A DNA stretch of 64,000 bases from Dermatophagoides farinae (lineage: Eukaryota > Arthropoda > Arachnida > Sarcoptiformes > Pyroglyphidae): NCBI RefSeq assembly GCF_024713945.1, contig NC_134679.1, forward strand, positions 6,887,001 through 6,951,000. The letters run 5' to 3'. Both the position numbers and the translations under genes were made by a program. Numbering within the stretch: the stretch's first letter is position 1; every line of letters starts with the position of its first letter. The notes under the pieces are model-generated. The model did not search any database, had not been told where the DNA came from, and saw only the letters and a list, made by a program, of their open reading frames with translations. This document shows positions 28,926 through 62,082 of this stretch, piece by piece.

Positions 28926-29452
28926 TGATGGCAAAAATACTTTTCAATTTTAAAATTCATTTGAATCGCATGTATTTTATTTTCATGACAATTTAATTTT
29001 TTTTTGCATCAAAATCTTAAAAGCTCAAGTGTCATTCCACCCATACATGAATGTAAAAGGCTTATAAACAAATATATAGTGAATAAAAAATCTTGGACAC
29101 GTAAAATGCTGAATAAATTTTATTGATGATTTTCATTAATTCATCATCAATAATCATTTTGATACGATCAACCGACATTTTCCGGGCTGCAACTTGATCC
29201 AAATTGGTACCAAGAGCATTAAAAGATTCCAGGACAATTTCCATCTCGTTTTCATCCATTTGATATTGGTCTGATACGATAGTGGTGATGATAGGAGTGG
29301 CAATTTTCTGCCCGTTGACCTCTAAAGACTCGAGGTATCAAGTTTCGATAAATGAATCGATACGAATATATCCTAAAAATGTAAAGAAAGAAAAGACGTG
29401 TGTTAATATACATAAAAAATCAATTGAAAAAATTATTGATTGATCGAAATCA

Positions 29453-29536
29453 TAAATCAGTTGACGAAAAATAAAATTTTTTGTAAAATCTTATTCGATC
29501 ATCGAAATTTCACTGTCTGCCTTAGGTCATCAGCAA
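29453..29536 (-). ncRNA. Box C/D snoRNA, intron 9 (18S guide)
   Basis: C box TGATGA (29527-29532), C'-like CGATGA and D box CTGA (29457-29460). The element before D is complementary to TGACGAAAAATAA (29462-29474), the 18S segment that carries the C modified under U14 guidance in yeast and human. The rest does not resemble U14. It is the only member with an 18S match. Confidence 0.72.
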
Positions 29537-29696
29537 TGGGGATCTAACCATATAAACATTTCATCTTTAATTAATACATACCAGAATATGGTTCCTGAAT
29601 CATTCATTTGCTGAATGAATTCTATATTTCAAAAATGAAAAAAAACAAAATTAAGAATCAAGTGTAAAAAATTGACAATAAGAATTAATCTCAAAA

Positions 29697-29770
29697 AAAT
29701 CAGTTGAAGAAATTCACATATGTTTGCTTTCATCATTTACTTCAAAAAGTTCAAACAATCATTCTCATCC
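29697..29770 (-). ncRNA. Box C/D snoRNA candidate, intron 8 (28S guide)
   Basis: D box CTGA (29700-29703) is preceded by a 12-nt element complementary to TGAAGAAATTCA (29705-29716), present in 28S within AAGTGAAGAAATTCAATG, the region of yeast Am2220. A perfect ATGATGA at 29730-29736 is too close to D to be box C and is probably C'. The true C box upstream is degenerate, so the 5' end is uncertain. Confidence 0.55.
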
Positions 29771-29918
29771 TGCAAGCTATATATTCTTACAAACACAGTA
29801 ATATCCACAATGTTCATAATCTGGCAATTTGTTTCAATAAAAAAAACTTACCAATTTTTTTAGCACTTGTGATTTTCGAGTGCTTGTACTTGCAGGCCAT
29901 CACTCTGTGTATATGTCA

Positions 29919-29956
29919 GGGAATTGTTATGATTTTGATAAAATCATAACAATCCC
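29919..29956. repeat. Near-perfect hairpin in intron 7 of snoRNA host
   Basis: Arms 29919-29936 and 29940-29956 are reverse complements over 17 pairs with one bulged base and a 3-nt loop. It lies about 15 nt upstream of a predicted acceptor (29905), in the one intron of the host gene without a clear snoRNA. The loop is too small for a standard pre-miRNA. Confidence 0.75.
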
Positions 29957-30230
29957 AAAAATGGAAATCGAAATGATCAATTAAACATCCGAACATCAAA
30001 GGATGCGATAATCATTGTGAAAAGCCAGCAAGATTAACTTGTGAAATATATATCCTCCCATTTTGTATTTTTTTCCCTCGATTTCAACTTCGGTTGTACA
30101 AAGTCTAACCCAAAAATGGGGGTATTGTTTTGAGTGTAGTTAAAGAATGCTGCTAAAAGAAAAATTTAAAAAAATCGATCAATTCAATATAGTATTTAAA
30201 TGAATAATAAAAAAACTTTGTATAAAAATC

Positions 30231-30309
30231 AAATCAGCTAGGTTTCTGATCAAATCATAAGAGTTCATATGTCCCTTAAACCTACATTTTTGTGAAAAAT
30301 CATCATATC
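30231..30309 (-). ncRNA. Box C/D snoRNA candidate, intron 6, target unknown
   Basis: C box ATGATGA (30300-30306), D box CTGA (30234-30237) and AATCA/TGATT external pairing. Its placement in the intron (50 nt from donor, 81 nt to acceptor) equals that of the other members. I do not recognise the sequence next to D (complement CTAGGTTTCTGATC) in rRNA or U6, so it is an orphan. Confidence 0.6.
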
Positions 30310-30517
30310 GAATGATTGATAATTTAAAAATTGTTTTAGAAAAATCGAATACCTACCTAATCACACAGGAAGTCTATTCTGCTCCATATATAAAACACAG
30401 TTAATATTGTTACAGATATCATGGCCATGTTCCTATATTCATGAGTGAAATGAGAAATATTCACAATTACAAACAGGAAAAAGCAATAATTTTTTTTGAT
30501 CAAAAGAAATTTGAAAA

Positions 30518-30600
30518 AGCTTCAGAAAGACTAATCGGGCTTAATATTTAGCATAATCATGGATTTTCATCTGGCAAAATCGTTGCTCATCATTGTTTCA
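30518..30600 (-). ncRNA. Box C/D snoRNA, intron 5 (28S guide)
   Basis: C box ATGATGA (30587-30593), C'-like ATGATTA and D box CTGA (30522-30525). The element directly before D is complementary to AAAGACTAATCG (30526-30537), an invariant 28S segment. TTGAAA/TTTCAA flank it and could form an external stem. Confidence 0.8.
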
Positions 30601-30639
30601 ATTTTTTTTTTGGATCGTCGAGAAAATATTAAGTGTTGG

Positions 30640-30665
30640 GAAGATTACTAACCTGAAATGAGAAA
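30640..30665 (-). other. Abutted acceptor and donor, possible recursive splice site
   Basis: On the minus strand a pyrimidine tract ends CTCATTTCAG at 30653 and is followed at once by the donor GTTAGT from 30652. The acceptor lies 78 nt after the D box of the intron-4 snoRNA and the donor 59 nt before the C box of the intron-5 snoRNA, the spacing seen in neighbouring introns. No other GT lies between this acceptor and the next C box. Confidence 0.5.
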
Positions 30666-30726
30666 AAAAAATTTCAATATTAAAAATTTTTGTGAAACTT
30701 TGGGTTAAAAAATCTTTTCTGAAATT

Positions 30727-30812
30727 GAAATCAGAAAAAAATAATTCATTCAATGTTGAAATCATTTTTACATGCTCATATAGATTCCCACTTGATTTTT
30801 AACATCATTTGA
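30727..30812 (-). ncRNA. Box C/D snoRNA candidate, intron 4 (28S guide)
   Basis: C box ATGATGT (30802-30808) departs from consensus at the last base; D box CTGA is at 30731-30734. The antisense element is complementary to AGATTCCCACT (30782-30792), matching the conserved 28S segment around GAGATTCCCACTGTCC. The D'-like box next to it is degenerate. Spacing to the acceptor (78 nt) fits the other members. Confidence 0.6.
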
Positions 30813-30984
30813 AATGTTTCTCATTCGAATCAAAAAAAAAAAAATTTTATAAAAAGCTTACCTGGTGTCAATGGAACTATAACCCGAGCATCGGCTAGAT
30901 ATCGAACATTTTTGATCCTAAGGAAAAGAAAAAACAAAATGAGTAAAAATTCTAGCCATTCGGTTGTTGATTTAAAAACAAATT

Positions 30985-31052
30985 AGAATCAGGTAGTAGC
31001 TGCTATCATTTTTTTTTTATCAAAGATCTTGGTGTAAAACAATCATCAGATT
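30985..31052 (-). ncRNA. Box C/D snoRNA, intron 3 (28S guide)
   Basis: C box TGATGA (31043-31048), C' ATGATAG and D box CTGA (30989-30992). The element before the D'-like CTTTGA is complementary to GATCTTGGTG (31025-31034). The element before D is complementary to GTAGTAGC. In 28S these two segments are adjacent (GATCTTGGTGGTAGTAGC). The D guide also fits TAGTAGCTG elsewhere in 28S, so its target is ambiguous. CAAAT/ATTTG could form an external stem. Confidence 0.72.
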
Positions 31053-31221
31053 TGATGAGAAATACAAAGATTTTTTTGCCATTATTCTTACCATCAAGAG
31101 AGTGTCATTTTCATTGAATTCGATACTTTATTATCTCGGGACAAATGCTGAAAATAGATTTAAAGTGAAAAAAAATCTTCATTAGAAAATGGCCATAAAA
31201 TTTAAATGAGAATGTGAACAC

Positions 31222-31305
31222 GAAATTCAGATAGGGGCGAAAATAGATAGATTTTTACTATCATAACTAAAATTAGTTCAGATGAACTATATTATCATCA
31301 ATTTC
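31222..31305 (-). ncRNA. Box C/D snoRNA, intron 2 (28S guide)
   Basis: A perfect 5-bp terminal stem GAAAT/ATTTC flanks C box TGATGA (31295-31300) and D box CTGA (31227-31230). An internal D' CTGA (31278-31281) and C' ATGATAG are also present. The D guide is complementary to ATAGGGGCGAAA of 28S (plus-strand copy at 31231-31242). The D' guide fits the 28S segment GTGAACTAT with one wobble. About 84 nt. Confidence 0.82.
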
Positions 31306-31455
31306 ATAAATTATTTAATTAGAAAAAATTAACGAAATAATTCACCTACCATAAAGTGGCCATCCGAATCATGATTAGTTTCTGAAATGGAAAAAAAAAT
31401 TTCTCGGGGTTAGTATTAAAAATTTAATTTTTTAAAAATTTAGAAATTATATTGA

Positions 31456-31535
31456 TAAATCAGATGAAACACGGATAGGTGGTAGAAAAGTCGTCATCGA
31501 ATAACTCGAGAGTAGCAAATATGGTCATCATTGTC
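31456..31535 (-). ncRNA. Box C/D snoRNA, intron 1 (28S guide)
   Basis: C box ATGATGA (plus-strand 31525-31531), D box CTGA (31460-31463) and an internal C'-like CGATGA. The antisense element before D is complementary to TGAAACACGGA, a conserved 28S segment also targeted by U18. The element before a CTCGA D'-like box is complementary to AGTAGCAAATAT of 28S. No clear terminal stem. rRNA matches are from memory. Confidence 0.75.
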
Positions 31536-32037
31536 TCGAAATTCAGAAAAAAAATCATTTAGAAGACCAATAGAACTTACCATGACGAACGCAGAAATTG
31601 AAATAAAATAGAACCAACAAGAAATGTGAAAATACACGCTTCTACCAGGGAGCGAGTAAACGGAAAACGTGCATTTTTTTCGAAACGCATGCGTATTCAA
31701 AATTCACGTGGCAAATGAGTCAATTTTTCAGGGATCCTTCAATATAGTACGTTAAACGATGAATTTTATTTTCAAATCTTTTTTTTCAGATTCAAAATAA
31801 TTATATAAAAATGGAATGGAAAAAATAATTATAAAAAATAACATAAACAAACATAGTTTACACACAGTAAACGGATAGAATGTAGAAAAGAAAAATTGGA
31901 AAGGCACTCGAAAATTCTCACCATACAATTTCCAAAGAATAGAATTTTCGCATAAAATAAAATAATTTTTCTGCAAATAAATAGATGAATGAATAGGTGT
32001 GTTTTCAAGACGAAAAAAAAAGAATAAAAACCATTTT

Positions 32038-33282
32038 TCACATGATCACACTTGGCTCTGCAACTGATTTGGAGATTTCTTTGTTAGGTAAAACTTTCAC
32101 GCCATTGAGATAAAGTTCATCATTAACGAGAACATCTTCGCCAAGTACACAATTATTTTCCATACGAACCTATTTGAATAAAGATTAATGAAACTTTTCA
32201 CAATTATCTAAATTACACATACCCATTTGCCGATTCGACATTTCCAGCCAATGATACAAGAATCGAGCCAGCTATGAGCTCGGACAATCGAATTGCTCAT
32301 AATAGTGCAACGTTTTATGCAAACACCATCTTCGATCACAACATTAGCACCGATCGAAACATTAGGTCCAATTCTACAATTTTGACCATATTTAGCTGTA
32401 GGATGAATGAGAACATTACCAACTATTCCGGGATTATTCGCACTGGGCAAAATATTTCTTGATTTCAACGAAGACAGATAAAGTCCTGTGCCTGTGATGA
32501 AATCTTTTGGCTGTCCAACATCCATCCAAAATCCAGGCAATTCAGAAGCATATAGTTGACCTTCAAAAGCCATCTTTGGAAAAATTTCCTTTTCAATTGA
32601 AGTTGGTTTTAGCTAGAAAGATTGTATTTGATCAATCAAAAAATGAATGTTAATGTGTGCGCTTTTAAATTACCTTAATTCGATTCAACACAGATGTCTG
32701 AAAGATGTAAATGCCTGCATTGATTTTATTCGAGACGAATTCCACTGGTTTTTCGACAAATTTTTCAATTTTTCCCAATTGATCATAAACGACCACACCA
32801 TATTTTGAAGGCTCTTCTACTTTGGTGACGAGTATGGTTCCTTCGCTACCATGATTTTTATGGAATTCATATAATGATTTGAATGGAAATTCACAGATAA
32901 CATCGCTGTTTAGCACAAAAAATGGCTCATCATCTTCAGATAGATATTCTCGTGCTAAAGCCAATGGTCCAGCAGTGCCTAATGGTTCTTCTTCCAAACT
33001 GAACGTAATTTTTATTCCTAACTGAAATTCGATTAGTGAAATGAATATTTCAAATCAATAAATCTAACCAACCTCTTTGGCCTGTTTTCTGATACATTCT
33101 TCAAGCATATCGGCACGATAACTTACAGCCAGAATAATATGTTTGATACCGAACTCAACCAATGCATCGATTTGATGTAGAATCATTGGTTTATTACAGA
33201 ATTCAACCAATGGTTTTGGTAAAGATAATGTTAATGGTCGAAGACGAGTTCCATAGCCACCGACAAGAATCAATGCCTTCAT
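32038..33282 (-). CDS. GMPPB: Mannose-1-phosphate guanylyltransferase beta
   Basis: Four exons: 33073-33282, 32674-33021, 32223-32612 and 32038-32169; 359 aa, complete. The N-terminal nucleotidyltransferase domain begins [18 protein letters not shown] and includes [29 protein letters not shown] follows. Residues about 250-359 form a left-handed beta-helix of hexapeptide repeats, ending SVAEPSVIM, very close to the human C-terminus. It makes GDP-mannose from mannose-1-phosphate and GTP in the cytosol for N-glycosylation, O-mannosylation and GPI anchors. Length equals the family norm (360). The first codon is about 1.6 kb from the start of the snoRNA host gene on the same strand. Confidence 0.97.
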
Positions 33283-33334: not shown

Positions 33335-33962
33335 ATGATATGGAATAAATTAGCTGACAATGAAGGGTGTGTTCGTCGAATAATATCGGAAGCAAATGAC
33401 ATAAAAAAATTGTTTGGTCAGCAAATCTATTTTGATTATAAGCAGCGAGAAAAAAGTGAAACAGTTTGATTATGTTTGAGATACTTTTGATAAGGGTTAC
33501 AGATAAATTTAGTATATTATGTCAACAAAAAAATTACTAACATAATATAACGGTTTATTGGTTGATAGAATGACGTGTCCGTTGTTCAAGATGTTAAAAA
33601 TTGGCTGATTGTTTTTGTTCGGTATAGATTTTCAATCAATCGATGATGAAAAAGTATCTAAGCAAATAATTGATGGATTGTTCATTTTAGATTCATTTCA
33701 TCAACAAAACATTTTGTTTGGATGTGAATTTTTGGAAATTTTCAACACGAAATTCATTAAAAATTGGTGATTATTATTGCCATGAAAACAAACATCAAAT
33801 CAGATCCATACAATTTGTTCAATTGACAATAGGTGGCGATAAAAACGTCAACATAATCAAAAGAATTACCGAAAAAACCAGACCACTATGTCGGATCATA
33901 ATCAAAATGGTAGTGGCATTGAATTCGGTTGTCAGAATCCAAACCATCCAAGTGCACGTTCA
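33335..33962 (+). CDS. Possible unrecognised gene divergent from GMPPB
   Basis: An ATG frame at 33335-33469 (MIWNKLADNEG, 44 codons), 53 bp from the GMPPB start, has balanced composition without tracts. A second open stretch (about 33630-33760) and a short one near 33885-33962 (MSDHNQNGSG) look equally protein-like, but I could not find splice sites that join them in one frame. No family is recognised. It may be a real small gene with misjudged exons, or chance frames in slightly GC-richer DNA. Confidence 0.25.
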
Positions 33963-61932: not shown

Positions 61933-62082
61933 GGTTCCATAGTGTAATTGGCTAGCACTTCAGACTCTGAAAATTCGTAATTGCGATTGCGATTCTGCAT
62001 TGAAAACTGCGTTTGACCTTGAATAAAATCAATTGCAAATGGGTGCGATCTGGCAATCTGGGTTCGAATCCCGGTGGGACCT
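61933..62082 (+). tRNA. tRNA-Gln (CTG) with a 77-nt intron
   Basis: Exon halves 61933-61970 and 62048-62082 fold to a 73-nt cloverleaf: acceptor GGTTCCA/TGGGACC with one G-U pair, D arm, anticodon stem TCAGA/TCTGG, anticodon CTG (61967-61969), and T arm with GGTTCGAATCC as B box. The sequence is very close to eukaryotic tRNA-Gln. The intron (61971-62047) follows position 37, the standard site for tRNA splicing endonuclease. A run of six T residues just after the gene is the Pol III terminator. Confidence 0.93.

Follow-up and report, generated by a model that had tools for sequence, protein, structure and literature searches.

A putative UHG-type host gene for eight box C/D snoRNA candidates in the mite Dermatophagoides farinae

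Described host genes and the mite locus

The closest described counterparts of the gene considered here are (i) the Uhg genes of Drosophila, of which Uhg1-5, 7 and 8 are portrayed, in the passages dealing with them, as lacking recognisable reading frames and as carrying one small nucleolar RNA (snoRNA) per intron, with Myc-bound E-boxes at Uhg1, 2 and 5 (PMC4430873); (ii) a gas5-like gene of chicken, described in the pertinent passages as non-coding, with short exons and tandem intronic C/D snoRNAs that include U80, U79 and U47 (PMC2653536); and (iii) snoRNA clusters I-V of Neurospora crassa, whose UHG-like hosts have, in the section concerned, short reading frames only (PMC2780460). Here a locus of the mite Dermatophagoides farinae is analysed within a window--that is, the whole 64,000-nucleotide (64-kb) stretch at positions 6,887,001 to 6,951,000 of contig NC_134679.1 (NCBI RefSeq assembly GCF_024713945.1)--in which donor and acceptor calls, together with C and D boxes, delineate a compact minus-strand gene with one C/D snoRNA candidate in each of its eight splice units. 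The genome comprises 62.4 Mb in 22 contigs, and its group-2 allergen gene (L036) agrees with Der f 2 at 119 of 120 residues, which points to D. farinae or a very close relative. The best reading of this sequence, in which we place high confidence, is a UHG-type RNA-polymerase-II host gene with eight intronic C/D snoRNAs.

Like the Drosophila Uhg genes, the mite gene has one snoRNA candidate per intron and, as far as Pfam and PDB searches of its last-exon frame show, no recognisable protein, and a CACGTG lies ~65 nucleotides (nt) upstream of its assumed start; by analogy, this E-box may be regulatory and Myc may control the gene. In the passages on the Drosophila genes, no Uhg gene with the same snoRNAs as the mite gene was found. 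Like vertebrate GAS5, the mite gene has candidates resembling U80, U79 and U47, namely those of introns 2, 4 and 5 (introns are termed I1 to I8 below). The Neurospora clusters, as far as the relevant part of the source describes them, differ in snoRNA composition and, unlike the mite gene, are polycistronic. For the latter we infer the following course of events: a minus-strand transcript would begin near 31640 (an assumed position) and then be spliced; each of the eight introns would be debranched and trimmed to yield one box C/D snoRNA; these snoRNAs, together with fibrillarin, would guide 2'-O-methylation of 28S and 18S ribosomal RNA (rRNA) at the fifth nucleotide upstream of box D or D'; and the spliced exons would be by-products.

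Splice units, box spacing and rRNA guides

The introns and their snoRNA candidates, in the order of the putative transcript, are:

31382..31580, minus strand: intron 1 with snoRNA 1; C ATGATGA 31531-31525, D CTGA 31463-31460
31148..31349, minus strand: intron 2 with snoRNA 2; Rfam RF00309 match and own 28S match
30918..31091, minus strand: intron 3 with snoRNA 3; C CTGATGA 31049-31043, D' TTGA 31023-31020, D CTGA 30992-30989
30653..30861 (or 30719..30861), minus strand: intron 4 with snoRNA 4, U79-like; C ATGATGT 30808-30802, D' ATGA 30779-30776, D CTGA 30734-30731 or TTGA 30753-30750
30433..30652, minus strand: intron 5 with snoRNA 5; C ATGATGA 30593-30587, D' ATGA 30570-30567, D CTGA 30525-30522
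30153..30356, minus strand: intron 6 with snoRNA 6; C ATGATGA 30306-30300, D CTGA 30237-30234
29622..29790 (or 29622..29851), minus strand: intron 7 with snoRNA 7 (29740-29656), snR47/U36 type; C ATGATGA 29736-29730, D' CTGA 29703-29700, weak D TTGA 29661-29658
29373..29581, minus strand: intron 8 with snoRNA 8; C CTGATGA 29533-29527, D' GTGA 29513-29510, D CTGA 29460-29457

The candidates show the box pair of C/D snoRNAs, RTGATGA and CTGA 50-90 nt apart: box C is exact or has one mismatch in all eight, and box D is CTGA in six of the eight as first called (seven with CTGA 30734 in I4), I7 having TTGA. In animals, intronic C/D snoRNAs are usually found ~70-80 nt before the 3' splice site. On the plain intron calls, the distance from box D to the acceptor is 71-89 nt in six introns, the exceptions being I4 (31 nt) and I7 (36 nt), and that from the donor to box C is 42-59 nt in seven, I7 having 115 nt. 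With donor 29790, the latter distance becomes 54 nt in I7, placing all eight within range; with acceptor 30653 and CTGA 30734 as box D, the former becomes 78 nt in I4, placing seven within range. A genome search with the snoRNA introns found no second place matching at E 0.001, which indicates a single locus. The observation of a prior sequence-only reading, that eight C/D candidates occupy successive introns, is borne out by eight splice units with one candidate each; its figure of 43-59 nt between donors and most C boxes is closely reproduced, and its range of 71-89 nt between D boxes and acceptors holds for the same six introns and fails for I4 and I7.

Guides--that is, elements directly upstream of D or D' that can pair with rRNA over about 9 nt or more--were sought in the mite's own rRNA, comprising the complete 18S and the 5' portion of the 28S (ribosomal DNA copies L010-L012), and, for other segments, in stand-in 28S from eukaryotic contaminant contigs (L002 and L006) of GTDB assemblies. 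Five of the eight candidates (I1, I2, I3, I5 and I8) have such guides on own rRNA, with exact complementarity at box D over 11, 12, 9, 12 and 13 nt, respectively (I3 thus having only 9 nt); the I4 and I7 guides are matched in other eukaryotes' 28S only. All five antisense elements quoted in the sequence-only reading adjoin a CTGA of the minus strand. A match to own rRNA, the lack of which that reading had named as one ground for refutation, is found for four: TGAAACACGGA, ATAGGGGCGAAA and AAAGACTAATCG occur in own 28S and TGACGAAAAATAA in own 18S, while the fifth, TGAAGAAATTCA, matches another eukaryote's 28S (L006) only and falls outside the readable own 28S. Some details of that reading change: the I4 guide lies at D' and does not adjoin a CTGA, no target was found for I6 in the rRNA searched, and I3 and I8 add D' guides. 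By the fifth-nucleotide rule, the predicted methylation sites are TGA[A]ACACGG, ATAG[G]GGCG and AAAG[A]CTAATCG in own 28S (the last from I5) and C470 and U307 in own 18S. We know of no methylation of the I5 site, AAAG[A]CUAAUCG, in yeast or human.

The individual guides are as follows. In I1, the 3' guide TCCGTGTTTCA pairs with own 28S TGAAACACGGA, which we take to be the U18 region, in a register shifted relative to vertebrate U18. I2 has a second guide at D', with 8 pairs and one wobble. In I3, the D' guide CACCAAGATCT pairs with 28S AGATCTTGGTG, a U24-type target (11 nt in L002, 10 nt in L006), and the D guide CAGCTACTA pairs over 9 nt with own 28S; the target of the latter is ambiguous, as the same element also complements, by eye, GTAGTAGC, which adjoins the D' target in L002. 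The I4 D' guide AGTGGGAATCT pairs with 28S AGATTCCCACT (11 nt, L002). In I5, the D guide CGATTAGTCTTT pairs with own 28S AAAGACTAATCG; the D' guide GATTTTGCCAG is SNORD47-like on the basis of a sub-threshold SNORD47 match, and no match of at least 8 nt to it was found in own and stand-in rRNA, the L002 site being different. The I7 D' guide TGAATTTCTTCA matches the L006 28S over 12 nt; CTGA 29703 in this intron is probably box D', and is so read because the snR47 model aligns with its guide there, an alignment on which the same CTGA was rejected as box D. From its guides, I8 is best described as a double 18S guide with one target at the U14 site: TAAGGCAGACA at D' pairs with own 18S 303-313 (11 nt) and TTATTTTTCGTCA at D with 467-479 (13 nt). 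I1 and I8 are named by target alone, the positions of the U18 region and the U14 site being presumed.

Resemblance to Rfam families points the same way. I2 matches snR60/U80 (RF00309) at 46.1 bits (cut-off 41), the only match to this family reported genome-wide when 61 out of 38,836 first-look candidates were scored. A lax scan gave 19 weak matches; 17 are to C/D snoRNA families, and 16 of these 17 lie on the minus strand. Below cut-off, and thus denoting resemblance only, are SNORD47 in I5 (29.1 bits; cut-off 50), SNORD79 in I4 (20.9; 47), snR47 in I7 (31.8; 61, with the guide aligned) and SNORD24 in I3 (24.1; 41), the last also reaching 21.3 bits in I1. The lax scan reported no SNORD18 match for I1 and no family for I8. 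A snoZ157 match at 33345-33430 on the minus strand (24.8 bits; cut-off 55) is probably due to chance.

Chance, coding potential and the junction of introns 4 and 5

CTGA and words like TGATGA occur frequently, most of the family matches are under the Rfam cut-offs, and a run with poor references gave many spurious matches; it might thus be supposed that these are chance motifs in AT-rich introns and that, apart from the snR60-like RNA and possibly one or two others, none of the candidates is real. In that earlier, noisy run, made without own rRNA and with AT-rich protist spacers and introns among its references, 16 sites of at least 11 nt were found, only 4 of them on the host gene's minus strand. 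With own plus stand-in rRNA as reference (9,027 nt), CTGA sites were scored for an exact rRNA-complementary stretch of at least 11 nt ending 0-1 nt upstream, a threshold chosen after the earlier run's results. The two strands of the window have 278 CTGA sites in all, and 8 of them adjoin such a stretch; 5 of these 8 fall inside the host gene, and a C box stands at the right distance from 4 of the 5, as against none of the other 3. When the gene was shuffled 500 times with dinucleotides preserved, 474 of the shuffles yielded no guide of this length, 25 one and 1 two, versus five observed; when a C box was also required, 497 yielded none and 3 one. Five guides against at most two in any shuffle, the regular box-to-splice-site spacing and the 11-nt complementarity of the I8 D' guide to own 18S render the chance explanation scarcely credible. 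Within the D' zone, shuffling gave p values of 0.005 (I3), 0.0075 (I7) and 0.0025 (I8); for the I4 D' guide p was 0.56, or 0.007 if the guide may end 2 nt short of D'.

Several observations weigh against the host-gene reading. Only one of the eight candidates passes an Rfam cut-off. I4 and I7 fit the spacing only with alternative splice sites or D boxes, and the acceptor distance of 36 nt in I7 is out of range unless CTGA 29703 is box D. D'-zone guides are no better than shuffles in I1 (p 0.61), I2 (0.20), I5 (0.84) and I6 (0.18). For I6, no target was found in own 18S, the 5' part of own 28S or stand-in 28S; an identity with U74 was rejected (only 7 nt of a U74-type target, by eye), as was U43 (20.9 bits, cut-off 45; own 18S has no match as long as 9 nt), and a provisional sequence of the 3' third of yeast 25S gave at best 9 pairs plus a wobble, away from box D. 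The predicted terminal stems are weak, with duplex energies of -1.2 to -3.6 kcal/mol (I1 and I3-I8; calculated without a null, and with I1 and I2 C coordinates 2-3 nt off in one of two runs); in I2 a closing stem is aligned by the Rfam model. Finally, the last exon contains a 91-codon open frame that is longer than expected from 2000 shuffles of that exon (p 0.016). The E-box and the exons of the gene model are:

31705..31710, strand unassigned: E-box CACGTG, ~65 nt before the assumed start; the window has 6 such sites in all
31581..31640, minus strand: exon 1, start approximate; donor ATG/GTAAGT at 31580 (the slash marks the splice junction)
30357..30432, minus strand: exon 6; acceptor GAATATAG/G, donor TTAG/GTAGGT
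29791..30152, minus strand: exon 7, long, ending at 29852 if donor 29851 is used; two dispersed repeats inside
29582..29621, minus strand: exon 8, from sequence and splice-site calls
28960..29372, minus strand: last exon, end approximate; 91-codon open frame (65 amino acids from the first ATG), no recognised domain

AATAAA/ATTAAA at 28997 and 28981 may mark the end of the last exon. The span 29372..31710 proposed by the sequence-only reading is thus apt from promoter to last intron and probably stops short at its lower end, the last exon continuing to ~28,960.

The open frame, along with ATG frames of up to 69 and 65 amino acids in the spliced model, raises the possibility of a protein-coding gene that hosts snoRNAs by happenstance and whose last exon is its coding end. 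Measured over the whole spliced transcript, however, the frame's length is unremarkable (p 0.158). A protein in the last exon was rejected on searching Pfam and PDB: no Pfam family reached the cut-off (best E 0.066), the best PDB match has E 0.12, and the frame has a single match in the genome. The frame of exons 1-2, moreover, meets a stop after 23 codons. A coding gene is accordingly highly improbable, and the UHG-type gene of the sequence-only reading remains the better account.

A separate question concerns what lies between I4 and I5, where the following feature is proposed from the sequence:

30652..30653, minus strand: ratchet point with a zero-length exon; T-rich tract TTTTTTTTTCTCATTT followed by CAG/GTTAGT; alternatively, exon 30718-30653

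Both an AG at 30719 and the CAG/GTTAGT donor are present, as a genuine 66-nt exon 5 (30718-30653) without a recursive splice site would need. Such an exon is less likely than not: its GC content of 0.18 is below the 0.33-0.43 measured in six other exons and the 0.22-0.29 of the introns, it ends in a tract with 15 pyrimidines of 16, and it would cut the distance between snoRNA 4 and its acceptor to 31 nt. Because this short, AT-rich 'exon 5' looks intronic, a recursive splice site with a zero-length exon at 30653/30652 is proposed instead. The window holds four YAG/GT[AGT]AGT sites; 15 of the 16 positions before this one are pyrimidines, versus 8, 4 and 9 before the other three. With a ratchet point here, the distance between snoRNA 4 (D CTGA 30734) and its acceptor would be 78 nt, and that between snoRNA 5 and its donor 59 nt, in line with the other units. 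Among the literature matches listed, no title dealt with recursive splicing in snoRNA host genes.

Neighbourhood, possible kinship with GAS5 and significance

Upstream on the minus strand lies GMPPB (GMPPB_C E 1.8e-31; stop near 32,040 by eye) and downstream, ~1 kb away and likewise on the minus strand, a dyskerin gene (28105-26639; DKCLD, TruB and PUA domains). Dyskerin, the pseudouridine synthase of H/ACA small nucleolar ribonucleoproteins, is encoded on the same strand as this C/D host gene. A plus-strand open reading frame between the host gene and dyskerin may correspond to BRK1/HSPC300; Pfam gave no match to a 41-amino-acid piece. The dispersed repeats of exon 7 (~30140-30053 and 30022-29905) recur at at least 5 and at least 22 further genome places, respectively (E 0.001), the second containing an inverted repeat around TTGTTATGATTTTATCAAAATCATAACAA; an H/ACA snoRNA in this exon was rejected (SNORA38, 16.4 bits, cut-off 60), the exon holding these repeats instead. 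At 29344-29289 and 29281-29236, the start of the last exon is similar, at 86-91%, to six other genome places (five on C7 and one on C9), and a neighbouring piece to one place on C3, the contig of the window; no protein match was found at these places.

Elsewhere in the window, an Rfam transfer RNA (tRNA) match of 42.6 bits over 150 nt at 61933-62082 (plus strand) suggests a tRNA gene interrupted by a long intron; ARAGORN found none. As for the databases, five contigs of GTDB species representatives (L002-L006) carry eukaryotic rRNA, among them a 1.16 Mb contig of Mangrovicoccus ximenensis with a 592-nt 28S piece inside, and an IMG/VR contig opens with a short stretch of eukaryotic 28S (L001:1-120) to which other sequence is attached, probably through chimeric assembly; this fragment was the only eukaryotic rRNA found in IMG/VR.

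The relation to GAS5 can now be weighed. Unlike GAS5, the mite gene has a different snoRNA order, and U44, U74, U75, U78 and U81 are not recognised in it; its four other recognised families (U18, U24, U36 and U14) are hosted elsewhere in chicken, where the table of the source assigns U18 to RPL4, U24 and U36 to RPL7A and U14 to HSPA8 (PMC2653536, Table 1). Three of the seven families recognised in the mite belong to the GAS5 set, versus 9 of 83 in the chicken table, a post hoc comparison (hypergeometric P 0.025) resting partly on sub-threshold names; that both RPL7A-hosted families (U24 and U36) are among the same seven has, by hand calculation, a chance of 21/3403. Because the P value is post hoc and partly sub-threshold and the RPL7A pair is equally striking, what is claimed is a gene working like UHG/GAS5, and not a GAS5 orthologue; the likeness of I2, I4 and I5 to the GAS5 set is only suggestive of common descent. 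We take the mite neighbours, GMPPB and dyskerin, to differ from those of human GAS5. A fuller scenario, in which U80, U79 and U47 would have stayed together since early animals, with later exchange of other snoRNAs, two snoRNAs within one formal intron by way of a zero-length exon, and guides for sites not known to be methylated in yeast or human, appears unlikely.

Among the matches listed in a literature search (titles and abstract openings), no title concerned a snoRNA host gene of a mite. To the non-coding snoRNA host genes described from flies and vertebrates, the mite gene adds a well-supported new example. If real, the ratchet point would be a simple arrangement by which each splicing event yields a single snoRNA with no exon needed. 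More generally, the locus, whose guides were compared with rRNA of the mite itself, provides a chelicerate data point on the movement of snoRNAs between hosts, and it bears on whether the GAS5 set predates vertebrates.

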